Below, in pieces: positions 2,544-16,352 of a DNA stretch of 16,352 nt. The notes beneath the pieces are model-generated. The model did not search any database. It saw only the letters and a list, made by a program, of their open reading frames with translations, and was not told the origin of the DNA. The translations under genes and the position numbers were made by a program. This DNA comes from an uncultured Collinsella sp. (lineage in GTDB: Bacteria > Actinomycetota > Coriobacteriia > Coriobacteriales > Coriobacteriaceae): contig USJQ01000002.1 of assembly GCA_900554985.1 (NCBI GenBank), positions 1-16,352 of the forward strand. The letters run 5' to 3'. The stretch's first letter is position 1. Each line of letters opens with the position of its first letter.

Positions 2544-2579
2544 AAAAAATAGGACAAAGGGGATGTCCCTTTGTCCTAT
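2544..2579 (-). terminator. Hairpin with T-tract between gatZ-like gene and tal
   Basis: A perfect 13-bp stem (2549-2561 with 2567-2579) closes a 5-nt loop. On the minus strand it runs into six T residues (A2544-2549 on the plus strand), the form of an intrinsic terminator. Only about 32 bp lie between it and the tal start, and I see no promoter there. It may therefore act as a partial terminator or attenuator inside one transcript. The stem sequence (GGACAAAGGG and its complement) also resembles multi-copy intergenic hairpins, so it could be a dispersed repeat. Confidence 0.7.
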
Positions 2580-2581
2580 GT

Positions 2582-2617
2582 GCCGGGCCTGCGGCTGGGA
2601 CATGCCCCAGGCCCGGC
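2582..2617 (-). repeat. Second inverted repeat after gatZ-like gene
   Basis: A perfect 10-bp GC-rich stem, GCCGGGCCTG (2582-2591) with CAGGCCCGGC (2608-2617), encloses 16 nt that can pair further. It lies between the gatZ-like stop (2637) and the T-tract hairpin, giving tandem hairpins on the minus-strand transcript. It has no T-tract of its own. It may stabilise the 3' end or block exonucleases. Confidence 0.6.
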
Positions 2618-2636
2618 GTCGTGTAGGAAAAGCTAC

Positions 2637-3911
2637 TTAGTCCTCGAGAGCCTTCTCGATGCGGCTCGTGACGCCCTTGAGGTTAAGACCGACGACGTAC
2701 TGCTTGATCGGGCGCTTGATGTGCTCGATCACAAAGCGCTTGCCGTCGATGTCCTGGGCAGCGAGGTTGCGATAGAGCTTCTCGACCTGCTCCTTGACCT
2801 CGGGATCGTTGAACGCATAGTGGCCGGAGACATCCAGGATCTTCAGGCTGAGCTCATCGTCGGCAAGGATGTCATCGACCTGCAGGTTGACGTCGTCGCC
2901 AGTCATCCACTTGCGCCAGCGCTCGGTCTTGATAGCCTTGACCAGCGGCGTGTGATACAGGTCGGAGGGGTCATTGCACAGACCGTTGTCGACCAGGATC
3001 TGCTCGGTGGCGCAGAGCTTGAGGTAGGCGCGGGTCTCCTCGGTGCCATACTGCGGAGCGACGTTGGAGGCGGTCACGTGTGCCGGGATGTGCTCGAGCA
3101 GCGTCGCGTCGTCCAGATAGTCGGCATTGTGCTCCTTCAGGCCCACGCCATAGCGCTTGGCCATATCGGCAAGCTCGCGGGCGTTCTTGAAGTTGTAGTG
3201 ACCGACCTGCTCCGTCCAGCGGGTAAGGGTGCCGGTCTGGCCGACGATAAAGGTGGGCATGGGGCAGCCGCGCTTCTCGAGCTCGGGCTGCAGCTGAGAA
3301 ATGAACTCCTCGTACTTATCGGTAGAGGTCAAGCCGCCATTGGTCTCCTCGGTACCGACCTCATAGGCGACCTCGGGCAGGTTATGCTCGCGACGGTACT
3401 GCTCAAGGTAGTCGATAAGACCGATCGTGCGGCGAAGCACCACGTCGAGCGGAATAACCTTGCCGATCTGATAGGGGTCCTTGGTGGGGTCGACCATCAG
3501 CAGGTCAAAGCCCGCCTCCATGTCGGCGACGAAGGACTTGCGGGCGAGCTCCATGGCCTCGTCCTCGGGCAGGTGGGCGTTACGCTCCTCGTCGCGCTGC
3601 CACGGACCGCCGTGATCGCGGCACAGGTAGTACGGACCGGTGTAACCCACCTCGTCGGCAACCTTCTTGATGTCGGCGGCAAAGCGCGTCTGGTCCCAAC
3701 CGTTGACGTAGCCGGCGCCCATCTCGTCCATATCGACCTGGTTGCGGCTGGCGATAAACATGGGCGGGAAATCCTCGTCCTTGGCAAGCTCGAACACGGC
3801 CTGAATCAGGTTGGGGCTCATGGGGCCAATGCCGACCATGGTTGCGTGATCGCCGCTATCCTGCAGCTTGAGCATGCCCTGAACGGCCTGACGGATGGTG
3901 AGGTTGGACAT
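2637..3911 (-). CDS. gatZ: GatZ/KbaZ-like protein, stand-alone (possible ketose-phosphate 4-epimerase)
   Basis: This 424-aa TIM-barrel protein belongs to the GatZ/KbaZ family (D-tagatose-1,6-bisphosphate aldolase accessory subunit). Motifs aligning with E. coli GatZ by eye are ASRNQVD (54-60), CRDHGGPW (97-104), EVGTEETNGG (184-193), VGQTGT (223-228) and KEHNADYL (259-266). Asp99, His100, Glu184/Glu188 and His261 are plausible metal or catalytic residues, so it looks enzyme-competent, not merely structural. The sequence is clearly diverged from the E. coli protein. The start has a strong GGAGAAGGAG site. No catalytic partner (GatY) or tagatose-6-P kinase is present in the window. I recall reports that some GatZ homologues interconvert fructose-6-P and tagatose-6-P; if so here, the product would be F6P for the neighbouring transaldolase and transketolase. 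The family is secure; the substrate is inference. Confidence 0.85.
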   Translation of the reverse strand: MSNLTIRQAVQGMLKLQDSGDHATMVGIGPMSPNLIQAVFELAKDEDFPPMFIASRNQVDMDEMGAGYVNGWDQTRFAADIKKVADEVGYTGPYYLCRDHGGPWQRDEERNAHLPEDEAMELARKSFVADMEAGFDLLMVDPTKDPYQIGKVIPLDVVLRRTIGLIDYLEQYRREHNLPEVAYEVGTEETNGGLTSTDKYEEFISQLQPELEKRGCPMPTFIVGQTGTLTRWTEQVGHYNFKNARELADMAKRYGVGLKEHNADYLDDATLLEHIPAHVTASNVAPQYGTEETRAYLKLCATEQILVDNGLCNDPSDLYHTPLVKAIKTERWRKWMTGDDVNLQVDDILADDELSLKILDVSGHYAFNDPEVKEQVEKLYRNLAAQDIDGKRFVIEHIKRPIKQYVVGLNLKGVTSRIEKALED

Positions 3912-3980
3912 TTTGTTCTCCTTCTCCAGAGGATTTTTGACAAAAGTTCCCTGGGACCCAGATGTGGGCCCTATCAGTAC

Positions 3981-4041
3981 GGATGGATTTTGTTGTGTAG
4001 GGGCGGTTGTGCGGAGTCAAATCCATCCCTCCGCACAACCG
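3981..4041 (-). other. Intercistronic RNA element with two interlocked perfect stems
   Basis: In the 144-bp gap between the PTS gene and the gatZ-like gene, two perfect inverted repeats interlock. GGATGGATTT (3981-3990) pairs with AAATCCATCC (4019-4028). CGGTTGTGCGGAG (4004-4016) pairs with CTCCGCACAACCG (4029-4041). The order 1-2-1'-2' is an H-type pseudoknot, or a switch between two exclusive hairpins. Arms 4028 and 4029 abut, which would allow stacking but leaves no linker, so the full stems may not form together. No T-tract follows on the minus strand. Further toward gatZ, an imperfect hairpin around 3950-3971 is also visible. Confidence 0.6.
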
Positions 4042-4055
4042 GAGTCCTTAAAGGT

Positions 4056-5528
4056 TTACTTGGCCTGCTTATCGAGCGTGGGCTTCATGGCAATCAGGAT
4101 TGCAGCGGCGACCACGGCGCCAATCACGATGTCCAGGCAGAACAGCGCGACGTTGTTGGTGGCAAGGGCGACGATAAAGCCACCGTGCGGGACGTAGCAG
4201 TCGATGCCCTGGAAGGCGGCAAGTGCCGCACCCACGGCAGAGCCGATGCAAATGCCGGGCAGGGTGTGACCGAGGTCCTTGACCGCGAAGGGGATAGCGC
4301 CCTCGGTAATACCGATGCAGCCCATGAACAGCGCGGAGATGCCCATCTGGCGGTCAGCGTCATCGAACTTGTTCTTGGCGATGAGCGCAGCGAGGCCACA
4401 GGCGATCGGGGGAACGGCGACGGCGACGCGGAACATACCGTTAGGACCGTAGATACCGGAGGCCATGATGGCCATGGTGAAGGTCGAGGCGGTCTTGTTG
4501 ATGGGGCCGCCCATATCGAAGGCGGTCATAACGCCAATGACCAGACCCAGGACAACTGCGGAACCGCCCTGCAGGCTGCCGAGCACGCCGGTGAGCCAGT
4601 CCATCACAAAGCCAAGCGGCGTGGCCAGGATGTAGATATAGGCCATGCCCAGGACAAGCGAGGTCAGAATCGGGATGATCAGGATGGGCATGATGGTCTG
4701 GATGGTGTTGTTGACCTTCCAGGTCTTCATCCAGCGGACAAAGTAGCCGCAGATGACCGCCATGATCATGGCGCCCAAGAAGCCGGTCGAAACGCTGTTG
4801 CCGTTAGGGGTAACGACTGCGTTATTGACCAGGTAGCCCAGGACAAAACCGGGGGCGAGCGCGGGCTTGCCGGCCATCGAGTAGGAGATGTATGCCGCAA
4901 GCACCGGGATCATCATGGAGATGCCGGCCATGCCGATGGTGTTAAGGCTCACCATCAGCGGGTTCGTAACCTCCATGCCGTTGGCGCCGGCGGTACCGGA
5001 TGCCAGCGAGAAGGCAAGAAACACGCCGCCGATAACGACGATGGGGATAAAATAGGAAACGCCGGTATTGAATGCATTGAGCAGCGTCTTGCCAGGATCG
5101 GCAAAGATAGACTGCTTGGACGCCGGTGTCGGGGCCTGCGGGGCAGCGGAGACGGCCTTCTTCTCTGCCTTGGCCTCGGCCTTGGGCGCGTCAACGGCGC
5201 CACCCGTCGCCTTGATGATCTCAATGGCCTGGTCGATGATCTTTACCGGATCGGCGATTACATCAGAGGTGCCGACCTTCAGGAACTTGCCCTCGGCCAT
5301 CTTCTGCTCAAAACGGTCCTCGTTCTCGACACCCACGTCGACGGACTCCAGGACCAGGTCGGCGGAGTCCACGTCTTCCTGCGTGAGCTCATTCTCGATA
5401 CCCAGGCCACCCTGAGCCTCGACCTTGCACTCGATGCCACGGGCGGCGCATTCATCCTGAATCGCCTTCTGGGCCATATACGTGTGGGCGATACCCACAG
5501 TACAGGCGGCAACGCCTACGATCTTCAT
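4056..5528 (-). CDS. PTS fructose-family EIIBC permease
   Basis: This 490-aa membrane protein imports and phosphorylates a sugar. Residues 1-108 are the EIIB domain, with phosphocysteine Cys9 in AACTVGIAHTYMAQ. Residues 110-140 are an Ala/Pro/Lys linker. Residues 145-485 are the EIIC domain with many hydrophobic helices and the family signatures FDMGGPINKTAS (337-348) and GITEGAIPFA (406-415). The start at 5528 follows AGAGGGA; upstream in-frame codons are not family-like. The usual loop is C-P-T-G, while here it is C-T-V-G. No EIIA domain is fused or encoded nearby, so EIIA must come from elsewhere. The divergent LacI regulator and the downstream GatZ, Tal and transketolase genes suggest a ketose or related sugar; the exact sugar cannot be read from the sequence. 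Confidence 0.92.
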   Translation of the reverse strand: MKIVGVAACTVGIAHTYMAQKAIQDECAARGIECKVEAQGGLGIENELTQEDVDSADLVLESVDVGVENEDRFEQKMAEGKFLKVGTSDVIADPVKIIDQAIEIIKATGGAVDAPKAEAKAEKKAVSAAPQAPTPASKQSIFADPGKTLLNAFNTGVSYFIPIVVIGGVFLAFSLASGTAGANGMEVTNPLMVSLNTIGMAGISMMIPVLAAYISYSMAGKPALAPGFVLGYLVNNAVVTPNGNSVSTGFLGAMIMAVICGYFVRWMKTWKVNNTIQTIMPILIIPILTSLVLGMAYIYILATPLGFVMDWLTGVLGSLQGGSAVVLGLVIGVMTAFDMGGPINKTASTFTMAIMASGIYGPNGMFRVAVAVPPIACGLAALIAKNKFDDADRQMGISALFMGCIGITEGAIPFAVKDLGHTLPGICIGSAVGAALAAFQGIDCYVPHGGFIVALATNNVALFCLDIVIGAVVAAAILIAMKPTLDKQAK

Positions 5529-5628
5529 TGCTTCCCTCTTTTCATAGAGTTGCGTGCGCAAGACACCGTTTGCGGAGGCCTCCGGAGCATCCCCTGCCGT
5601 TTGGACTTGCTGTCTTTTCGACAAGAAC

Positions 5629-5657
5629 AATATAGGTGCTCGTTTTTCTTAATGCCA
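5629..5657 (-). promoter_or_regulatory. Candidate promoter of the PTS-gatZ-tal-tkt genes
   Basis: On the minus strand a TATATT -10 box (5634-5629) lies 17 bp after a poor -35 (TGGCAT, 5657-5652), about 100 bp before the PTS start. The weak -35 would fit an activated promoter. An alternative promoter overlapping the operator near 5700-5723 cannot be excluded. Confidence 0.35.
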
Positions 5658-5701
5658 GCTTATTTCGGTAAACGCGCAGGTCAGAGCGTTGGTTATGCGA
5701 T

Positions 5702-5721
5702 TTAGTTATGCGTTTAACCAA
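5702..5721. promoter_or_regulatory. LacI-family operator dyad
   Basis: The 20-bp site TTAGTTATGCGTTTAACCAA is an imperfect palindrome centred on CG (5711/5712); 14 of 20 positions agree with its own reverse complement. The central CG and the TTA/TAA flanks are the layout used by LacI/PurR-type regulators. A second left half-site, TTGGTTATGCG (5689-5699), sits 13 bp upstream in the same phase, making a direct repeat of GTTATGCG. The divergent LacI protein is the natural ligand. Confidence 0.55.
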
Positions 5722-7073: not shown

Positions 7074-8057
7074 ATGTCGCGCAAGCCCGCCTACAAGCAA
7101 GCACTTTCCATCGGCACCGCCGTGGTGCTGGGGTTTGCGCTGTTTACGGGATCGCTCGACGGAGCGCCCAAGTTGCTGTCGCCGCAAGGCGATGAGCAGG
7201 CGGCGGCTCTGGCCGAAAAACAAAACGAGAGTCCCAGCCGCACCGACGACGAGGCAGACCTGGTCGCTCGGCTCGAATCGGGAACGGCGAGCGCGGCGGA
7301 CCCTCAAAACAGCCAGGACTCTGGCGATGGCTCCGATTCCGCCGCGACCGACACCGATGACGACGTTTCCGCGGGCAGTGCCGCCACCCCCATCGACGAG
7401 GTCGAAAACCCCGACCTCAACCGCGCCCGCGGCGTTTATCTCAGCAGCATTCCCGACTACGCCGGCAACCCCTACGTTGCCCTTCGCGCCGACAGCACGC
7501 ACCCGCTCGGCACGCCGTCATTCACACTCGATGAATACGGTCGCGCCACCGAAGAGGGCTGCTTTAAGAAATTCTCCAAGCTCGACAGCCTGGGTCGCAC
7601 TCGCAAGGCGCTCGCCTGTGTAGGCCCCGAGTCGCTCGGACAGGGAAAGCGCGGCGATATCTCGCGCATCCATCCTGCCGGTTGGCACCAGCAGCGCTAC
7701 GACTTTATTCCGGGCCAGAGCCTCTACAACCGCTGCCACCTTATCGCCTGGTCGCTCTGCGGCGAAAACGCCAACCGCAAGAATCTCCTCACCGGCACGC
7801 GCTATCTCAACGAGACGGGCATGCTGCCGTTTGAAGAGCAGATTCTCAACTATATTCGCGATACGGGCAACCATGTGCTCTACCGCGTCACGCCTATGTA
7901 TAACGAAGAGGAACTTGTCTGCCGTGGCATGCGCCTTGAGGCGCAATCGGTCGAGGACCACGGCAAGACCCTCTGCTTCCACGTATATTGCTACAACCTG
8001 CAGCCGCACGTGCAGATCGACTACACCACCGGCCGCAATCAGGCCTCGGGAGACTAG
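7074..8057 (+). CDS. Secreted or membrane-anchored DNA/RNA non-specific endonuclease
   Basis: This 327-aa protein has three parts. Residues 1-27 form a basic then hydrophobic signal or anchor segment. Residues about 40-110 are a low-complexity linker rich in Asp, Ser, Ala and Gln. The rest is a nuclease domain resembling the EndA/streptodornase group of beta-beta-alpha-metal nucleases. The active-site region reads YNRCHLIAWSLCG (218-230) with likely catalytic His222, then NRKNLLTGTRYLN (234-246) with likely metal-ligand Asn246. Many relatives have R-G-H where this has R-C-H. Other conserved-looking parts are YRVTPMY and a C-terminal FHVYCYNLQPHVQIDYTTG. Probable roles are extracellular nucleic-acid degradation, nutrient recovery or DNA uptake. 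It is an isolated gene ending at a bidirectional terminator. Confidence 0.88.
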   Translation: MSRKPAYKQALSIGTAVVLGFALFTGSLDGAPKLLSPQGDEQAAALAEKQNESPSRTDDEADLVARLESGTASAADPQNSQDSGDGSDSAATDTDDDVSAGSAATPIDEVENPDLNRARGVYLSSIPDYAGNPYVALRADSTHPLGTPSFTLDEYGRATEEGCFKKFSKLDSLGRTRKALACVGPESLGQGKRGDISRIHPAGWHQQRYDFIPGQSLYNRCHLIAWSLCGENANRKNLLTGTRYLNETGMLPFEEQILNYIRDTGNHVLYRVTPMYNEEELVCRGMRLEAQSVEDHGKTLCFHVYCYNLQPHVQIDYTTGRNQASGD

Positions 8058-8116
8058 GACCGACCGCACCGCCCGTAACCCAAAAATGATTCGTTTTCCT
8101 CCGTCCCCATGGGATC

Positions 8117-8154
8117 AAAAAAGGCCGCCCTGGATTACCCAGGGCGGCCTTTTC
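8117..8154. terminator. Bidirectional terminator between nuclease and EF-G-like genes
   Basis: A perfect 13-bp stem, AAGGCCGCCCTGG (8121-8133) with CCAGGGCGGCCTT (8139-8151), has a 5-nt loop. A-tract and T-tract flanks serve both convergent transcripts. Confidence 0.92.
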
Positions 8155-8186
8155 GTCAGCGTCCACATTGCAGGCAACGCCACACG

Positions 8187-10262
8187 CTACTTGGCGCGGC
8201 CCTCCTCATAGCGCTCGACCAGCTTGGCCTGAACGTCATAAGGCACCTGCTCGTAGCCGGCGGGCTTCATGGTAAAGTCACCCGTGCCGCGCGTGATAGA
8301 GCGCAGGCGCGTCGAGTAATCCGTCAGCTCGGCGAGAGGTGCCTGGGCGATGACCACGGTGTCGCCGCGTTCATCGGTCTCCATGCCCGTCACGCGACCG
8401 CGCGATGCCGAGATGTCACCCATCACGGCGCCGGCGTAGCTCTCGGGAATAGTCACCGTGATTTCCTCGATGGGCTCCAGCACCACCGGGTCGGCATCGG
8501 CGCATGCCTTGCGCAGGCCGATGCGAGCCGCCGCGCGGAACGCCATCTCGTTGGAGTCGACGCTGTGATACGAGCCGTCGTACACAGCCACGCGAATGCC
8601 CGTGAGCGGGTAGCCGGCAATGATGCCGTCCTTCATGGTCTCCTGGACACCCTTGTCCACGGCGGGGATCAGCGAGCGCGGAATGCGGCCGCCCACGACC
8701 TCATCCACAAACTCGTAGCCGTCGCTCGTGCCGTCGGGCCCAATAAGCGGCTCCACGCGCAGCCAGCAGTCGCCGTACTGACCGGCGCCACCGGTCTGCT
8801 TCTTGTGGCGACCCTGGGCGCTCGCCGTGCGGCGGATGGTCTCGCGATACGGAATGCGGATCGGCACGCTCTTGGCCACGACCTTGGTGCGATCCTCCAA
8901 ACGGTTGAGCAGCACCGAAACCTGCGCCTCACCAACGGCGGAGATGATAGTCTGGCCCGTCTCCTCGTCACGATCGATGCTCATGGTCGGATCAGCCTTG
9001 CACGCCTTCTCGATAAACGTATAGAGCTTCTCTTCGTCGCCACGGTTCTCGGCCTCGATGGCAATGCGGTACTGCGAGTTGGGGAACTTAAACGCCGCAG
9101 CCTCGACCTTACCGGTAATGGAGAGCGTATCGCCCGTCTCGGCCGCCAGCTTGGGCGCCACGATGATGTCGCCGGCATAGGCGTGACCGACCTCGGTCAT
9201 GTCGCGGCCGCACATCACATACAGGTGGGCCAGACGATCGCTCTTGCGGGTACGCGCGTTGATCAGCTCAAGACCCGGCTCAAGCGTACCCGTCAGCACC
9301 TTGATAAAGCTGATGCGACCCTGCTGCGGATCGGCCAGCGTCTTAAACACAAACGCCACCGGACGGTCATCGTCGCTCGAAATCTTGAGCGAATCACCGT
9401 CGATGAGCGGCATCTCGCCGTAGTCCGTCGGCGCCGGGAAGTACGTGGCGATGTCGTCCATCAGCGAGTTGACGCCCTGCTCCTTAATGCAATCGCCCGC
9501 AAAGACCGGCACAAAGATGCGCTCGGCAATCGCCTTCGACAGCAAGCCCTCAAGCTCCTCCTGCGTCAGCGTCTCCTCGCCTTCCAAGTACTTCATCATC
9601 AGTTCGTCGTCAGCCTCGGCCACCAGCTCGCACAGATGGTCATGGGCCTCCTCGGCCTGGGCACGATACTCCTCGGGAATCTCCGACTCAACGGCTTCGG
9701 CGCCGTTGCAATGGCGCGCCTTCATGCGCACCAGGTCGATGATGCCATCAAAGTCCTCGCCCTCGCCCCAGGGAAGGGTCGCGGCGCCCAGTCGCGTGCC
9801 AAAGCGCTCCTGCAGCAGGTCCATCGTGGTCGCAAAGCTGGCCTCGGAGCGCGACAGGCGGTTTACGAACACCGCACGCGCCAGACGCAGGTCCTCGGCG
9901 GCATACCAGAGCTTAACCGTCGTAGGCTGTGGGCCGGCCTCGGCGTCGACCACAAACAGAGCCGTCTCGCAGACGCTCATCGCGGCAAAGGCGTCGCCGA
10001 TAAAATCGGGGTAGCACGGGGCATCGAGCACATTGATGCGCGCGCCCTTCCAGTCGATCGGCGCGATGGTCGTCGAGATGGAAAATGCACGCTTGACCTC
10101 TTCGGGGTCATAGTCGAGCGTGGGCTTGGTGCCGTCGTGGCCGCCCAGGCGGGCGGTCTTGCCGGAAAGGTGGAGCATGGCCTCGGCGAGTGAAGTCTTG
10201 CCCACCCCGCCTTGGCCTACGAGCACCACGTTCCTTACGTTACCGGTCTTGGGAGCACCCAT
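8187..10262 (-). CDS. EF-G2-like (FusA2-type) translational GTPase with altered G motifs
   Basis: This 691-aa cytoplasmic protein has the full EF-G domain order: G domain (about 1-280), domain II (RPVAFVFKTLADPQQGRISF), domain III, domain IV (HKKQTGGAGQYGDCW, SVDSNEMAF) and domain V (AGAVMGDISASRGRVTG). The P-loop GQGGVGKTS (16-24) is intact. G3 reads DAPCY (80-84), not DTPGH. G4 reads NRLS (134-137), not NKxD. M. tuberculosis FusA2, as I recall it, also has Tyr at the G3 position but keeps TKLD at G4. It is therefore an EF-G paralogue and not the main EF-G; its role (recycling, stress translation or ribosome protection) is unknown. The start at 10262 is fixed by AAGGAGG upstream and the family-like MGAPKTGNVRNVVLVG. 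Confidence 0.9.
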   Translation of the reverse strand: MGAPKTGNVRNVVLVGQGGVGKTSLAEAMLHLSGKTARLGGHDGTKPTLDYDPEEVKRAFSISTTIAPIDWKGARINVLDAPCYPDFIGDAFAAMSVCETALFVVDAEAGPQPTTVKLWYAAEDLRLARAVFVNRLSRSEASFATTMDLLQERFGTRLGAATLPWGEGEDFDGIIDLVRMKARHCNGAEAVESEIPEEYRAQAEEAHDHLCELVAEADDELMMKYLEGEETLTQEELEGLLSKAIAERIFVPVFAGDCIKEQGVNSLMDDIATYFPAPTDYGEMPLIDGDSLKISSDDDRPVAFVFKTLADPQQGRISFIKVLTGTLEPGLELINARTRKSDRLAHLYVMCGRDMTEVGHAYAGDIIVAPKLAAETGDTLSITGKVEAAAFKFPNSQYRIAIEAENRGDEEKLYTFIEKACKADPTMSIDRDEETGQTIISAVGEAQVSVLLNRLEDRTKVVAKSVPIRIPYRETIRRTASAQGRHKKQTGGAGQYGDCWLRVEPLIGPDGTSDGYEFVDEVVGGRIPRSLIPAVDKGVQETMKDGIIAGYPLTGIRVAVYDGSYHSVDSNEMAFRAAARIGLRKACADADPVVLEPIEEITVTIPESYAGAVMGDISASRGRVTGMETDERGDTVVIAQAPLAELTDYSTRLRSITRGTGDFTMKPAGYEQVPYDVQAKLVERYEEGRAK

Positions 10263-10436
10263 GATGACCTCCTTGCAGGGCCGCGCGCAATGCGCGACGC
10301 CAACGGGGAGAGTTCGCGGTCGGTGCCATCCCGGGAGCAGCATGGTCGGCAGCCGAGCCGACTCACCCTCCAAATGTCCTATGCCACCACCCTACCCTCA
10401 CGGGCGACCGTCCATGCATACCTTTCGGCGCACGTA
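10263..10436 (-). other. Long leader of the EF-G-like gene
   Basis: With the rest of the 310-bp gap up to 10572, this stretch holds no gene I can support. The inferred leader of roughly 170 nt contains a 6-bp hairpin (GTCGGC 10345-10350 with GCCGAC 10357-10362). A tight hairpin (CGCGC 10284-10288 with GCGCG 10292-10296) lies just before the strong AAGGAGG ribosome site (10274-10268). Such structures could modulate translation, but no known riboswitch class is recognisable. Confidence 0.4.
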
Positions 10437-11337: not shown

Positions 11338-11983
11338 GATAATAGTCCAGCTTCTTTTCGGCGGCGCCCAACAGCATCTCGACCACGAAGTTGAAAACCC
11401 AGTAGATCAGCGCCGCAATCGCAAACGGTACCATGCTCACCTGCGAGGCGACCAGCGCCTTGGCCGTCGAGAACATCTCACCCACGCCAATGGCAAACGC
11501 CAGCGACGTGTCCTTGACCAGCGTGATGATCTCGTTGCCCATCGCCGGCAAAATACGCTTAGCGACCTGCGGCATCACGATATACAGAAACGTCTGTATG
11601 CGCGAATAGCCCAGCACCTCGGCTGCCTCGTATTGACCGCGCGGAATGGACTGCAGGCCCGAGCGATAGATCTCGGCAAAGTAACCGGCGTAGTTGATGA
11701 TGAACGCCACGACGCACGCCGTCCACTTGGAATCGGGCGTGAGCGAAATGCCAAACACGTAGTACGGGGCAAAGTAGATGGCAAACATCTGCAGCATGAG
11801 CGGCGTACCGCGCATTACCGAAATGTAGATGCGCGCAATCCAGCGGAGCGGCACAATTTTACTCATGCGCATAAACGCTACGGGGATTCCCAGCGGAATC
11901 GATCCGAGCAGCGTCAGCACAAACAGCTGCAAACTAACCAAGAACCCCTGGCCAAGCATCTGCATCATGACCTGAATAGACAT
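11330..11983 (-). CDS. Polar amino-acid ABC transporter permease
   Basis: This 217-aa inner-membrane protein has about five hydrophobic helices. The EAA loop that docks the ATPase is YEAAEVLGYSRIQTFLYIVMPQ (about 118-139, with the usual E-A-A and G). The N-terminal half carries VMRGTPLMLQMF, typical of the HisM/GlnP group. I chose the ATG at 11983, which overlaps the lipoprotein stop in a TAATG junction; a TTG at 11998 is the alternative. The codon use is the GC-rich type of the left part of the window. Confidence 0.94.
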   Translation of the reverse strand: MSIQVMMQMLGQGFLVSLQLFVLTLLGSIPLGIPVAFMRMSKIVPLRWIARIYISVMRGTPLMLQMFAIYFAPYYVFGISLTPDSKWTACVVAFIINYAGYFAEIYRSGLQSIPRGQYEAAEVLGYSRIQTFLYIVMPQVAKRILPAMGNEIITLVKDTSLAFAIGVGEMFSTAKALVASQVSMVPFAIAALIYWVFNFVVEMLLGAAEKKLDYYHD

Positions 11984-12768
11984 TACTTGAGCACCCAATT
12001 ATCGAAAGATAGACCATAGCTTGAATACTTATCGCACAGGTCCTTGACCGTGCCGTCCTCGTAGAGCGCCTTGAGCGACTCGGTCACAGCGTCGGCCGAC
12101 TTGGTGTCGCCCTTCTTAAAGCCGACGGCGTAGTGCTCGCTGGATAGCGGCTCATCAAGCTGCGTATAAGCATCGGGCTTGGCGGCAAGCTGATACTGGG
12201 CAATCGAAAGGTCGCAAGCCACGGCATCGACCGCGCCGCTCTCGAGCTGCATAAAGGCCGTGTTGTACTCGCCGATCGTGTCGAGTGTGGCAAACGTCGC
12301 CGCCAGATCCTTCTGGTCACCCTCGAGTACATCCTGCGCAGCGGAATCGGTCTGGGTAATCACGGTCTTGCCGGCAAGATCGTCCCAGCTCTTGATGCCC
12401 GCATCCTTCTTTACCACCAGCACCTGCTCGTTGAGCATGTACGGCTCGGAGAACGTGTAGTCGTCCTCACGACCCTCCATGGTAAAGCCGTTCCAGATGC
12501 AGTTGATGGCACCCGAGTTGAGCAGCGTATCCTTGGCATCCCAGTCGATAGGCTGCTTTACCAGCTCCCAGCCCTGTCTCTTGCATACTTCTGCTACCAG
12601 ATCCAGGTCAAAGCCTACATATTCTCCACTGTCATCACGATATCCGTAAGGGGGAAATTCCGCATCGAAACCTACGGTAAATGTTTTCTCAGATCCTTTA
12701 GAACCACAGCCGGTAAGAGCACCTGCTGCCATGCTGATTGCCAGTAATGCCACTAATACTCTTTTCAT
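11983..12768 (-). CDS. Amino-acid ABC transporter substrate-binding lipoprotein (compositionally chimeric)
   Basis: This 261-aa solute-binding lipoprotein delivers a polar amino acid to the permease. It has a lipoprotein signal peptide ending LTGC, with lipidated Cys21. The PBPb fold follows, with FTVGFDAEFPPYGY and YVGFDLDLVAEVC near the N-terminus and SIAQYQLA and YAVGFKKGDT later. The start at 12768 follows GGAGG. The first roughly 65-70 codons use AGA, GTA, GAA and CAG like the right part of the window. The rest uses CTC, AAC, TCG and GAG like the left part. The frame is unbroken across the switch, so the product would be a full-length hybrid of two homologues. Which amino acid is bound cannot be told. 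Confidence 0.9.
   Translation of the reverse strand: MKRVLVALLAISMAAGALTGCGSKGSEKTFTVGFDAEFPPYGYRDDSGEYVGFDLDLVAEVCKRQGWELVKQPIDWDAKDTLLNSGAINCIWNGFTMEGREDDYTFSEPYMLNEQVLVVKKDAGIKSWDDLAGKTVITQTDSAAQDVLEGDQKDLAATFATLDTIGEYNTAFMQLESGAVDAVACDLSIAQYQLAAKPDAYTQLDEPLSSEHYAVGFKKGDTKSADAVTESLKALYEDGTVKDLCDKYSSYGLSFDNWVLK
12520..12580. other. Composition and codon-use junction
   Basis: Within the lipoprotein gene, AT-leaning codons on the right (AAG AGA CAG, GTA, CCT) give way to GC-rich ones on the left (CTC AAC TCG, GAG GAC GAC TAC ACG). The break lies across a stretch encoding KQPIDWDAKD, probably shared by both parents. Everything left looks Coriobacteriia-like and everything right Lachnospiraceae-like. 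Either an assembly joined two genomes at a conserved segment, or homologous recombination did. Confidence 0.75.
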
Positions 12769-12815
12769 AATACATCCTCCCGTTCTGCCACTCACTGTTG
12801 GCCGCGTCGTATACT

Positions 12816-12835
12816 TTAGCATGGTAAATTGCTAA
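12816..12835. promoter_or_regulatory. Small dyad at the predicted transcription start
   Basis: TTAGCA (12816-12821) and TGCTAA (12830-12835) form a 6-bp inverted repeat with an 8-bp spacer. It begins just downstream of the -10 box of the lipoprotein promoter, where a repressor would bind. It could also be chance. Confidence 0.3.
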
Positions 12836-12844
12836 CACGGTGTC

Positions 12845-12874
12845 ATAGTAACACAACGAGAGGTGTCTTGTCAA
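12845..12874 (-). promoter_or_regulatory. Strong sigma-70/sigma-A promoter of the lipoprotein gene
   Basis: On the minus strand a perfect -35 TTGACA (12874-12869) is followed after 18 bp by -10 TACTAT (12850-12845). It starts 5 bp beyond the stop of the upstream coiled-coil gene, and no terminator lies between, so read-through from that operon is likely. Confidence 0.75.
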
Positions 12875-12878
12875 TTCT

Positions 12879-14039
12879 TTATCGGTCGTACCGCTCCACC
12901 ATGGCCAGGATCTCCTGGGCATATTTCGGATAGGTGGCTGCGATGTCTTTTACTTCGTTTCTTGCACTCTCCGCTACTTCCTGATTGTAGTCCATCTGTT
13001 TACGGAGCACCTGTCTTCTCTGGATCAGTTCGTGACGGATCTCCACCATTTCCCGCTTGTCCAAAAGCGCAGCTGTCTGGCTGATCCAGCGCTCCGGCAT
13101 CTGCACACGATAACCGGCCAGCTGCTGTACCAGCTGCTTCTGGTAGTACTCGATCTTAGCTTCCGCCTCTGCGAACTGCTTCCGCTCTTCCTTTTCGTCC
13201 TGATACATTTTCCACTGTTTTTCCAGCTTTGCTGCACTGTCCGTATTGTACTTCAGATACAGATATTCCATCAGCTGACAGTTGTTCACATAGCGGATCT
13301 TGACTTTATTCTGCAGCTGGATGATCTTGTTGATGGTCTTCTCCACCCGCTGCAGTTCCCGTCCTGCATCCATGTACCGGATGCAGACATAGGAGATGGC
13401 TACAGCTCCTGCACCTACTGCCAGAAAAAGTCCCACATAGACATCCATTTCAAAAACATACTGCAGGATCACCAGCATGATCACACAGACGATCAATGCC
13501 GTAAGGAAAATGACAGCCATGCCCCGTTGGTTGTTCATCAGATTCTCCAGCTCATTTCTCCGGTATTCGTAGGCATGTCGTTCTCCGTCCAGTCTGTGCA
13601 GATCCTGCCTTATCAGATTGCCGTATTTCTCGCCGTCCCGAATCTTCTGAATGCCTTCTTCAATCTCGTTCTCTCTTTTGCGGATCGCATAGAAGTCCGC
13701 ATCACGCATACGGTTCTTCTTTTCCCGGTATCTGCTGCGTTCCTGTTCCAGCCCGGCCAGCTTGCCGGCCACCCGGTTGACCTCTTCTCTCTGCTCTGCT
13801 GGCAGGGCCTCAATCTCATCCGTATCCGTCAGATAAGAAGTCACCAGCGTATACTCTCCCGTCAGGAGGTCGATCTCCTTGGAAGCCTCTGCGATCTGCT
13901 CCAGGCAATTTACAATGTAACGTTTTCTCTGGTCTTCCTCATCAAAATTCACACCGTTGCGGGTATAGACCAGCTGTTCCCAGTCCTCTTCCTGCTGTAT
14001 CGGTTCTTTTTTCTTAAATAAACGGTTCCACCACGCCAT
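12879..14039 (-). CDS. Two-helix membrane protein flanked by long coiled coils, unknown function
   Basis: I do not recognise a named family for this 386-aa protein. It begins with a basic, tryptophan-containing MAWWNRLFKKK. A charged, heptad-rich coiled-coil region runs from about 36 to 165. Two closely spaced hydrophobic helices (about 174-194 and 201-221) are joined by a very short turn around EMDVY. A second coiled-coil region runs from about 228 to 360. No signal peptide is seen. A membrane hairpin with both long arms in the cytoplasm is the simplest topology. The ribosome site GGAGAGAA precedes the ATG at 14039. It lies 21 bp after the TPR-like gene and is last in the operon with the Hsp70-like gene, so it may be the membrane anchor or scaffold of that set. 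Confidence 0.85.
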   Translation of the reverse strand: MAWWNRLFKKKEPIQQEEDWEQLVYTRNGVNFDEEDQRKRYIVNCLEQIAEASKEIDLLTGEYTLVTSYLTDTDEIEALPAEQREEVNRVAGKLAGLEQERSRYREKKNRMRDADFYAIRKRENEIEEGIQKIRDGEKYGNLIRQDLHRLDGERHAYEYRRNELENLMNNQRGMAVIFLTALIVCVIMLVILQYVFEMDVYVGLFLAVGAGAVAISYVCIRYMDAGRELQRVEKTINKIIQLQNKVKIRYVNNCQLMEYLYLKYNTDSAAKLEKQWKMYQDEKEERKQFAEAEAKIEYYQKQLVQQLAGYRVQMPERWISQTAALLDKREMVEIRHELIQRRQVLRKQMDYNQEVAESARNEVKDIAATYPKYAQEILAMVERYDR

Positions 14040-14060
14040 AATTCTCTCCTGCTGTCTTCT

Positions 14061-14912
14061 CTATACGCTGACACTTGTCCGGTAACTGTTTTTCAGTGCC
14101 TGAGTCAGTCTCTCATTTTCCGCATCGTATCTCACTCTGTCGTTCACCCGCCAGTCACCACGCAGCCGTAGCTGTCGGTACTCCGGCTGCTGTTCCCATT
14201 CCCATTCAAATTGCTCGATCCGCTTTTCCAGTTCCAGGGACTCCGTATAATTTTCCGGATTCTGCGCTGCAAATGCCACATAGGCATCCTCCGTCAGTTC
14301 CATTCTCTTTGCCGCCAGATAGGCATCCAGGTGTTCTCTGTCCGGATCGGTCTTCCAGGCTTCGTTAAAGTAATATGCCGCCTTGCCATAAAACATCAGC
14401 CCTGTCAGCGCCACACCCTTATTGTGCAGGATCGCCGCCCGGACTTTTCCCGCCGGAAGTTCCTTGCCTTCCTGTTCCAGATGGTTCCAGGTCTCCAGCA
14501 GCATATCATATCCGCGGATGGCTGCCGCATATTTTCTTTTTTCCACCATATAGTCGATCTGGCTCTTGCGTTTCTCCAGATTGCTGAGTCCGGCTCCCTG
14601 CTTCAGTACCTGCTCCACCTGCAGGATTTCTTCCGGATCGTACATCCCCACATATTGCAGGATCGTCACCACGAACACACTTAAAGATCCCTGCTTATGT
14701 ACCATGGGGTAGAGCTGTTTTGCCAGTTCCCACACTTTACATTCTTCTCCGATCCAGTCCACCAGCTTATCGTTCATGATGGACAGGTCTAACAGGAATG
14801 CATTCTCCTTTAGGCAATAGCACAACTCTTCCATACTATAGACCCGGATATCCAGGCCTTCCACATTATAGGCATTCTCGCAATATTCTCCTACACACAG
14901 ACTTGCCTTCAT
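14061..14912 (-). CDS. TPR-like protein of unknown function
   Basis: This 283-aa predicted cytoplasmic protein has no signal peptide or membrane helix. Residues about 122-150 (KRKYAAAIRGYDMLLETW) and 158-190 (AILHNKGVALTGLMFYGKAA and following) match the helix-turn-helix pattern of tetratricopeptide repeats, including the Gly/Ala/Tyr/Ala/Pro positions. The N-terminal 110 residues are helical and Cys-rich at the start (Cys6, Cys11, Cys31, Cys33). The C-terminal part is highly charged, with EQFEWEWEQQPEYRQLRLRG. The ribosome site GAGGAT precedes the ATG at 14912. TPR proteins often bind chaperones or assemble complexes; lying directly after an Hsp70-like gene, a co-chaperone or adaptor role is possible but unproven. 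Confidence 0.85.
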   Translation of the reverse strand: MKASLCVGEYCENAYNVEGLDIRVYSMEELCYCLKENAFLLDLSIMNDKLVDWIGEECKVWELAKQLYPMVHKQGSLSVFVVTILQYVGMYDPEEILQVEQVLKQGAGLSNLEKRKSQIDYMVEKRKYAAAIRGYDMLLETWNHLEQEGKELPAGKVRAAILHNKGVALTGLMFYGKAAYYFNEAWKTDPDREHLDAYLAAKRMELTEDAYVAFAAQNPENYTESLELEKRIEQFEWEWEQQPEYRQLRLRGDWRVNDRVRYDAENERLTQALKNSYRTSVSV

Positions 14913-14945
14913 TTTTCATCCTCATTTTCTCTGCCCCGGGCAGAT

Positions 14946-16184
14946 CTACAACTCTATTTCTTCCTTCCAGATATGATGCGTAGCTGTTCGGAAGCTGCCA
15001 AAACCAAGATCCTCCAGTTCCACCTGCAGATGTGTTTCATCCTTCATCTCCACCTGAATCCGCAGTCTGGTGATTCCTTCCTGCAATTCTTCCGGCACGA
15101 TTCTGGCGATCCGGCTGCCCTTTCCCGTCAGGGACGTGATCAGGATCTCCACCGCTCTTCCTTCCAGCAGGTAAAACTCCATGGTATTCTGCGCCTCATA
15201 CCAGTTGATTCCGGCGTCTAACAGTGCCTGATAGGATTCCTCTCCCTGTCTGCGCACTTTCATACCGATATTGGATTTCAATTTATCCTGTCCCAGATAG
15301 ACATGATTTTGTCCGTTTTCACTGGGATGCAGTCGCTCCATCATGCTGTAGCAGGCACCCTTGCTGAACAGGTTGTTCCCCTGAAAGACTCTCCGTCCAC
15401 GGCACAGATAGCGTAGCGATTCTTTCATCCATTCTTGAGAAAACTCTTCCCCGATCAGATATACCGAGGACACCATCCGGTTCTCACATAGCTGTGTGGC
15501 GATCTCCAGGAACTTTTCATCCGATTTTTCCACCGGAAAAGGGAATTCCCGCTCTTCGATGTACGTTACCACCGGCGTCGTATGGCGGTTGCATTCCATA
15601 TAATAAGTCTGGATGGAACTGTCCCTATACTCGCACAGCACGCTCCCCTGCTTCCACAGATTTTCCGGCTGATACAGATTGTAATAATAAAAGCTCTCCC
15701 GATGGCTCTGAAAACAGACAGCATCCGTCTTCAGGTGTAATGCCTCCACTGCCTGCGTCAGCACCTCCAGCATTCCTGCATCCAGTTCCTCGCAGGTGAT
15801 CATCAGGGCCCCGATCCGCTCTGTGGAAGTCATCTGGGACAGCATTCCCAGACTACGCTTGAGAAAAAGAGTCAGTAGTGCCACCGGATCCAGAGTCGTT
15901 CCATCGATCTGCACCGGTTCCCCATCTTTTGCCAGCTTCAGAAGATGCTCCACCAGGATTCCCTCTTCTTCCTCCGCATGCCGGAGGGCTTCACTTCCAT
16001 AGAACCACTGGTTGACTCCCTGTCTCTTGCTCAGGACCAGGGGAATCGTATAGACCTGTGAGCCTGCAACGGAAGACAATGTGGTGATCTCTTCTTCCTT
16101 GCCTGTGACATAGCAGCTGATCTGCGCATAATCCTTCCCCAGGTCATAACCCACTATAACTTTATCACTTCCCGGCAGTCGCAT
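14946..16184 (-). CDS. Short divergent Hsp70/actin-fold protein (DUF5716-like)
   Basis: This 412-aa protein resembles an abbreviated Hsp70. The phosphate-1 loop is VGYDLGKDYAQIS (11-23, compare IGIDLGTTNS). IPLVLS and FYGSEALRHA (61-70) match the start of the Hsp70 nucleotide domain. The adenosine-site region is VYLIGEEFSQEWMKE (241-255) then NNLFSKGACYSM (270-281), but with G-E-E where Hsp70 has G-G-S. The phosphate-2 region around CEYRDSSIQTYY (184-195) lacks the double glycine. The end, with LLEGRAVEILITSLTG (339-354) and HLQVELEDLGFGSF (385-398), resembles the beta-sandwich substrate domain of DnaK, with no helical lid. I believe it matches DUF5716, from memory. The start follows AGGAGG. 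Nucleotide hydrolysis is doubtful. Confidence 0.82.
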   Translation of the reverse strand: MRLPGSDKVIVGYDLGKDYAQISCYVTGKEEEITTLSSVAGSQVYTIPLVLSKRQGVNQWFYGSEALRHAEEEEGILVEHLLKLAKDGEPVQIDGTTLDPVALLTLFLKRSLGMLSQMTSTERIGALMITCEELDAGMLEVLTQAVEALHLKTDAVCFQSHRESFYYYNLYQPENLWKQGSVLCEYRDSSIQTYYMECNRHTTPVVTYIEEREFPFPVEKSDEKFLEIATQLCENRMVSSVYLIGEEFSQEWMKESLRYLCRGRRVFQGNNLFSKGACYSMMERLHPSENGQNHVYLGQDKLKSNIGMKVRRQGEESYQALLDAGINWYEAQNTMEFYLLEGRAVEILITSLTGKGSRIARIVPEELQEGITRLRIQVEMKDETHLQVELEDLGFGSFRTATHHIWKEEIEL

Positions 16185-16221
16185 GTTCTTCCGCCTCCTC
16201 TCCTGCTGTCTTTTTTTATTT

Positions 16222-16352
16222 TTACTGCAATGTGAACAATCTGTGATCCAGATATTCCCTGCGGTAATATTCCTCGATCAGATGATCCAGTGTCGTATCG
16301 TCCTGCAGTGTCATGCTGATCATCATATCATTGATGATCTCGTATTTGCTGT
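16222..16352 (-). CDS. C-terminal end of an unidentified protein (5' part beyond window)
   Basis: The minus-strand frame reads in from the window edge and ends at TAA (16224-16222). The last 42 residues include SKYEIINDMMISMTLQDD and HLIEEYYRREYLDHRLFTLQ, helical and charged, with codon use like the adjoining genes. The stop is 37 bp before the Hsp70-like start and no terminator intervenes, so it belongs to the same operon. In related genomes I recall a large DUF5717 protein beside DUF5716; whether this is its end cannot be told. Confidence 0.65.
   Translation of the reverse strand, partial: SKYEIINDMMISMTLQDDTTLDHLIEEYYRREYLDHRLFTLQ

Follow-up and report, generated by a model that had tools for sequence, protein, structure and literature searches.

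DnaK and other classical Hsp70s are built of a nucleotide-binding domain (NBD) and a substrate-binding domain whose beta part (SBD-beta) is covered by an alpha-helical lid, and their exchange factor GrpE contacts subdomain IIB. Atypical Hsp70s such as Ssz1 and Hsp110 scaffold rather than cycle, keeping ATP binding. In bacteria, the GAP1-N2 GTPase systems (Kaur et al. 2020, PMC7159879) comprise, in the part of the paper covered, an HSP70, GrpE, another HSP70 that lacks the peptide-binding domain, and a protein bearing TPRs, and the CnuD proteins of CoCoNuTs (PMC11090510, also covered in part) are Hsp70-like, with an NBD and SBD of degenerate motifs, and belong to a multi-gene bacterial system. 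Neither paper, in the portions covered, describes an operon of DUF5717, DUF5716 and TPR genes. Here we analyse such an operon in a stretch of 16,352 nucleotides (the window; contig USJQ01000002.1). We propose, at a probability of about 0.6, that its products form a scaffold which needs no ATP, is usually tethered to the membrane, has a dead Hsp70 (the DUF5716 protein) at its base and was inherited from a dedicated chaperone machine.

The operon consists of four co-directional minus-strand genes spanning 12879-16352, with gaps of 37, 33 and 21 bp in transcription order, just as the first-pass annotation of this DNA had read them from the open reading frame (ORF) list. An operon with the same genes is present in Lachnospiraceae bacterium GAM79 (locus L001), and a related, expanded operon occurs in other genomes. 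The features are as follows.

16222..16352, minus strand: C-terminus of a DUF5717 protein (PF18983, E 8.5e-8), with its stop at 16222 and the rest outside the window.
14946..16184, minus strand: DUF5716 protein of 412 aa, a putative degenerate, lidless Hsp70 (DUF5716_C, PF18980, E 1.6e-96).
14949..15284, minus strand: SBD-beta half of the DUF5716 protein, residues ~301-412 (approximate), from alignment to Hsp70-C of the expanded operon and thence to DnaK (2v7y).
14061..14912, minus strand: TPR protein of 283 aa with a conserved N-terminal domain, from hhalign to the expanded-operon TPR protein and from fold.
12879..14039, minus strand: coiled-coil protein of 386 aa with a hairpin of two transmembrane segments, accessory, from homologues and hydropathy.
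13377..13520, minus strand: hydrophobic hairpin of the coiled-coil protein, residues ~174-221, from the hydropathy of related proteins, among them the near-identical one of L001.
12525..12555, no strand: chimera junction inside an amino-acid ABC binding-protein gene, from matches to genome G001 (left) and L001 (right).

Pfam matches over the cut-off were obtained for two products, the 412 aa protein (DUF5716_C) and the C-terminal fragment (DUF5717), which had earlier been left unidentified. The TPR and coiled-coil proteins of the window matched no Pfam family above cut-off, and none of the four proteins had an over-cut-off match in NCBIfam. The full DUF5717 protein, as seen in GAM79 (L001 6389-9964), is 1191 aa long and matches PF18984 at 2e-298 and PF18983 at 5.7e-98.

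To place the operon we read 22 compact loci, that is, loci of the window's kind (L001-L003, L042-L059 and L061). The DUF5717, DUF5716 and TPR genes were adjacent and co-directional in all 22, and the coiled-coil gene came next after the TPR gene in 16. The constant unit is DUF5717-DUF5716-TPR, and since its order is kept in every compact locus, the grouping is not due to chance; the conserved synteny that the first-pass annotation had named as a check was thereby borne out. DUF5716_C was found in 145/150 sampled genomes of the family of GAM79 (G002). Order-wide it was present in 142 of 295 genomes, 134 of them over cut-off, and the 142 carriers were split by E-value into 50 strong and 92 weak. 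Expanded loci were read from 20 weak genomes (L062-L081), hand-picked out of the 92 mostly for contig room, and from one strong but odd genome, G007 (L060); the Hsp70s encoded there are termed A to D. Two differing compact operons (L091 and L092) were seen in one assembly, G790, a matter of duplication or contamination.

By profile comparison, DUF5716 is an Hsp70 relative with an actin-like NBD and an SBD-beta but no lid. Profiles were made from 22 compact sequences, 15 of 21 Hsp70-B and 15 of 18 Hsp70-C. With hhalign, the compact DUF5716 profile matched Hsp70-B at 100% (E 4e-55) and Hsp70-C at 99.7% (E 3e-25), and the latter two matched DnaK in the PDB at E 4e-22 and 5e-57, respectively. In a Foldseek search with the AlphaFold model of DUF5716, the matches listed (50 of 73 at E <=0.001) were all Hsp70s or Hsp70-holding complexes by title, with DnaK on top and a best E-value of 1.8e-7; the model being poor, these matches serve as local support alone. 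Three observations count against this assignment: the compact profile by itself matched DnaK in the PDB at just E 0.003, the model, made from a shallow alignment, had a predicted local distance difference test (pLDDT) score of 53, and the TM-scores of its Hsp70 matches were ~0.25. The profile chain from DUF5716 through Hsp70-B and Hsp70-C to DnaK nevertheless upholds the lidless Hsp70 fold of the first-pass annotation.

The nucleotide site was scored by three motifs, GxDxGTT (phosphate-1), DxGGGT (phosphate-2) and GG[ST] (adenosine). All three were present in 17/17 Hsp70-A, 18/18 Hsp70-C and 15/16 Hsp70-D proteins (the sole exception being the cut D of L060), and in none of 21 Hsp70-B or 22 compact DUF5716 proteins. 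The second and third motifs were separated by 163-166 residues in A, 125-138 in B, 130-132 in C and 115-139 in D, as against 48-65 in all 22 compact proteins; these counts exclude proteins of expanded loci that are no longer than 440 aa (pieces in L060, L064 and L071) and an extra match of 331 aa in L049. The difference amounts to ~70 residues that correspond to subdomain IIB, whose limits we take from general knowledge of Hsp70, and that are missing in 22/22 compact loci. The protein stops at the last SBD-beta strand, soon after a D-L-G-F-G motif whose residues D392, G394 and G396 are invariant in all 22 compact sequences, and the alpha-helical lid is absent. DUF5716 thus has the superfamily fold but none of three attributes of a functional Hsp70, namely nucleotide motifs, subdomain IIB and lid. 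It is very likely a pseudo-ATPase by its sequence and would have lost ATP binding. Because ATPase motifs and subdomain IIB are gone, a classical Hsp70 cycle by DUF5716 alone is unlikely; of the Hsp70 plus TPR chaperone pairing suggested earlier, the conserved partner genes stand and a cycling Hsp70 probably does not. A DUF5716 protein of 519 aa, with ~100 added residues inside the NBD region, was seen at L094 895-2454.

Residues outside the canonical motifs might still form a remodelled site that lets DUF5716 bind a ligand, nucleotide or other, and serve as a switch, which would count against an ATP-independent scaffold. G12, a glycine close to the N-terminus, and the pair G276-A277 are invariant in 22/22, as such a site might require. 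We consider it improbable, as the canonical phosphate and adenosine motifs are missing in all 22 and the subdomain IIB stretch is gone. With ATP site, subdomain IIB and lid lost, DUF5716 would work without a nucleotide cycle: it would retain the NBD core, linker and SBD-beta, and hold partners by these.

The likely partners are the products of the two adjoining genes. The 283 aa protein belongs, as judged by profile and predicted fold, to the TPR family, in agreement with the first-pass annotation. It aligned with the expanded-operon TPR protein at 99.8% (E 1.7e-28, hhalign) over the N-terminal domain and first repeats, and its model (pLDDT 87) found TPRs as the best Foldseek matches in the PDB, at E 0.035 and above. 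Pfam TPR was matched weakly by 4/28 close homologues, the window's own protein lying below a match. Five genomes (L086-L090), identified as the five rows with frames above 600 aa among the DUF5716 matches of the family survey, encode DUF5716 and the TPR protein as a single ORF of 684-723 aa; such fusions appear to have at least two origins in a quick tree, in which a long branch leads to one of them. DUF5717 has helical repeats, the profile of 16 of its relatives matched designed PPR solenoids at ~1e-4, and the N-terminal part of the protein looks Ig-like by eye. We therefore picture a complex of DUF5716 and TPR protein, fused in some genomes, that would be mounted on the long DUF5717 solenoid.

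The same proteins could instead form an adaptor for housekeeping chaperones, in which the TPR protein would bind DnaK or HtpG and DUF5716 would present clients while ATP cycling is supplied in trans. Ssz1 of the ribosome-associated complex offers the comparison for cycling in trans, and it was among the Foldseek matches of DUF5716. An over-cut-off htpG gene lies immediately upstream of the DUF5717 gene, on the same strand, in 4/22 compact loci (L042, L052, L056 and L057); in 2 further loci the distance is 4-5 genes. The TPR model resembles, among many other TPRs, the TPR domains of Hop/Sti1 and FKBP proteins solved with Hsp90 peptides. However, all six htpG loci fall in one subclade of the tree, and no htpG was found in the fetched stretches of the remaining 16 compact loci. 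The adaptor is the main rival of the scaffold and we regard it as possible, though rather unlikely.

Attachment of the scaffold to the membrane would be provided by the coiled-coil protein, homologues of which were found in 17 loci. Two hydrophobic segments at a Kyte-Doolittle (KD) value of >=1.6 were present in 14 of the 17; L001, L056 and L060 had one, the second segment of the L001 protein falling under the threshold. Across homologues the hydrophobic hairpin is flanked by coiled coils, as had been noted from the window's protein, and the profile of the family resembles a keratin coiled coil at 0.0014. Derivation of this protein from the GrpE-fusion protein of the expanded operon was considered and dropped (hhalign probability 0.2%). 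The hairpin protein would tie the assembly to the membrane in most of the loci read. Weighing against a membrane-tethered assembly, the gene is missing from 6/22 compact loci (L047, L048, L054, L055, L058 and L061), and for that reason we treat it as accessory; the membrane scaffold of the first-pass annotation may apply to the 16 loci that have the gene and is not a fixed part of the operon.

A device for sporulation or envelope development had also been proposed for the operon, and the membrane gene in 16/22 compact loci would suit it. Spo0A_C was, however, absent from 25 of the 50 strong DUF5716 carriers and present in 119/153 genomes without DUF5716, so that the sporulation role is unsupported and this reading has the least to be said for it of all those considered here. 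Overall, the fold, the TPR protein, the hairpin and the synteny of the earlier interpretation stand, sporulation finds no support, and an Hsp70 cycle by DUF5716 alone is improbable.

The expanded operon indicates where the scaffold may have come from. In full it runs DUF5717, Hsp70-A, a helical protein ending in a GrpE domain, Hsp70-B, Hsp70-C, Hsp70-D fused to VWA, and TPR. This seven-gene order was complete in 12/20 loci (L062, L063, L065, L067, L068, L069, L070, L074, L075, L077, L078 and L080), with one to three extra ORFs inside it in L062, L065 and L074, leaving 9/20 complete without extra ORFs. The remaining eight were partial, interrupted or running off the stretch, L073 and L076 showing just A, the GrpE-fusion and B. 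In L069, Pfam HSP70 was matched by A (5e-76), C (7e-63) and D (5e-96), D also matched VWA (2e-10) and the fusion protein GrpE (3e-13), while Hsp70-B matched both DUF5716_C (1.5e-26) and HSP70 (1.4e-17). The GrpE domain was found in 15 of 16 fusion proteins scanned out of 21 such proteins. No J-domain was found among the seven L069 operon proteins.

In an unrooted tree, compact DUF5716 formed one clade (support 99) adjoining Hsp70-B of L060 (100), which is suggestive of shared descent. L060 encodes DUF5717, A, a short GrpE-like protein, B, C, D, TPR pieces and a coiled-coil homologue, several of the genes looking broken; it is thus an intermediate between the expanded and compact operons, the single one found. 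A divergent CobD-like gene, whose best NCBIfam match is CobD at a score below cut-off, lies 1-2 genes upstream in 6/22 compact and 5/20 expanded loci, and valS is downstream of two compact loci, L047 and L058, as well as of the intermediate L060; in the remaining loci neither marker was found within the stretch fetched. Because of these shared flanks, both operons probably occupy one ancestral place. The compact operon looks like a reduction of the expanded one, although the direction of change is our inference. Against a secure descent, the compact sequences are long-branched and the trees were unrooted and quick. The ancestor would have been a larger operon with three motif-complete Hsp70s, one degenerate Hsp70 that became DUF5716, an exchange factor (the GrpE-fusion) and the TPR and DUF5717 proteins that the compact form still has. 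Loss of subdomain IIB together with the GrpE-fusion is consistent with an Hsp70 that has stopped cycling.

Across the class, DUF5717 was matched in 17 of 391 genomes searched, above the cut-off in 16 of these. All of the 17 except one, the weak G410, belong to the order sample. None of the known carriers of the expanded operon was matched in this draw, and yet DUF5717 was over cut-off in 18/20 genomes tested directly, ~17 of these of expanded or weak kind. Since known carriers were missed, the draw sets no bound on the outer limit of the expanded form.

Comparison with the described systems separates this operon from each. With DnaK and GrpE it shares the NBD and SBD-beta fold, and the expanded form encodes three Hsp70s with complete motifs as well as a GrpE domain; it differs in the DUF5716 losses and in having no J-domain protein in the L069 operon. 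An Hsp70 body as partner-binding scaffold, the role proposed here for DUF5716, is common to Ssz1 and Hsp110, whereas DUF5716 is without the entire ATP site and sits in a bacterial operon with TPR and DUF5717. The HSP70/GrpE theme of the GAP1-N2 systems, as far as the covered part of Kaur et al. (2020) goes, is the nearest printed analogue found: it too has an HSP70, GrpE, a second HSP70, which lacks the peptide-binding domain, and a TPR-bearing protein, but in the present operon it is the ATP site that the degenerate Hsp70 has lost and SBD-beta that it retains, and VWA is fused to an Hsp70. No TRAFAC GTPase or GAP1 family was found in the window's or L069 operon proteins, flanking genes being viewed by eye only. 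Like CnuD, in the portion of PMC11090510 covered, DUF5716 has an Hsp70 NBD and SBD whose motifs have degenerated, and it too is encoded among several genes of one bacterial system; the operon proteins scanned included neither McrB/McrC nor any nuclease family.

These likenesses raise the question of a defence or conflict module akin to either system. The Hsp70, GrpE, VWA and TPR parts of the expanded operon are in common with them (PMC7159879 and PMC11090510, in the parts covered), Hsp70-C, Hsp70-D and the expanded TPR protein gave weak partial PADLOC matches, and Cas genes (Cas3-type, Cas8b-type) lie just beyond two expanded operons (L067 260-2704 and L080 16272-17948). None of the four compact proteins had a PADLOC match, though, and no GTPase, McrB or effector family occurred among the operon proteins scanned. 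The presence of DUF5716 in nearly all genomes of its family, next to housekeeping neighbours such as purB, valS and htpG, is unlike patchy defence islands, and we hold a defence role to be very unlikely, a shade less credible than a remodelled ligand site.

The window itself is a chimera, Collinsella-like from base 1 to ~12,540 and Lachnospiraceae for the remainder. G+C drops from ~0.58 to 0.50 near 12,500; bases up to 12576 align to G001 at 97%, and 12437-16352 align to L001 at 98.7%, with identity almost unbroken from ~12530. The left part we take to be Collinsella by recognition of its genes. The switch falls in a shared stretch of ~22 bases at ~12,525-12,555, within gene 11983-12822, so that homologous ABC binding-protein genes of the two genomes are joined there, and GAM79 has its own intact amino-acid ABC binding-protein gene at this position. 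An assembly join is the likeliest cause, though true recombination may be responsible. The whole operon lies on the Lachnospiraceae side and is unaffected. In the high-GC part, long plus-strand frames at 2571-5705 (1044 aa) and 8109-10193 (694 aa) are antisense to likely genes and probably a codon-usage artefact. The Collinsella-like part also encodes a 728 aa elongation factor G family paralogue (8187-10373, minus strand; NF009381 over cut-off), and the protein at 7074-8057 (plus strand), which has no NCBIfam match, begins with a signal-like sequence and contains a region that looks endonuclease-like by eye.

DUF5716 is near-universal in the sampled major gut family, yet literature searched on DUF5716, DUF5717 and their Pfam accessions yielded no paper describing either family, PMC8115291 containing, in the part covered, a single mention of DUF5716; the earlier statement that no function is established agrees with this. 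We put at even odds a scenario in which the four-Hsp70 machine, with its GrpE-fusion and Hsp70-VWA, arose in the order of GAM79, and its family shed the ATP-using parts and the exchange factor, leaving a near-universal ATP-free scaffold of degenerate Hsp70, TPR protein and DUF5717, mostly on the membrane, that would serve as a structural or sorting platform. With the expanded operon, a four-Hsp70 machine and an ATP-dead remnant become the two ends of one natural series, and this series opens two questions: what purpose a bacterial pseudo-Hsp70 serves, and by what route a chaperone parts with its exchange factor and with the lobe that this factor touches.

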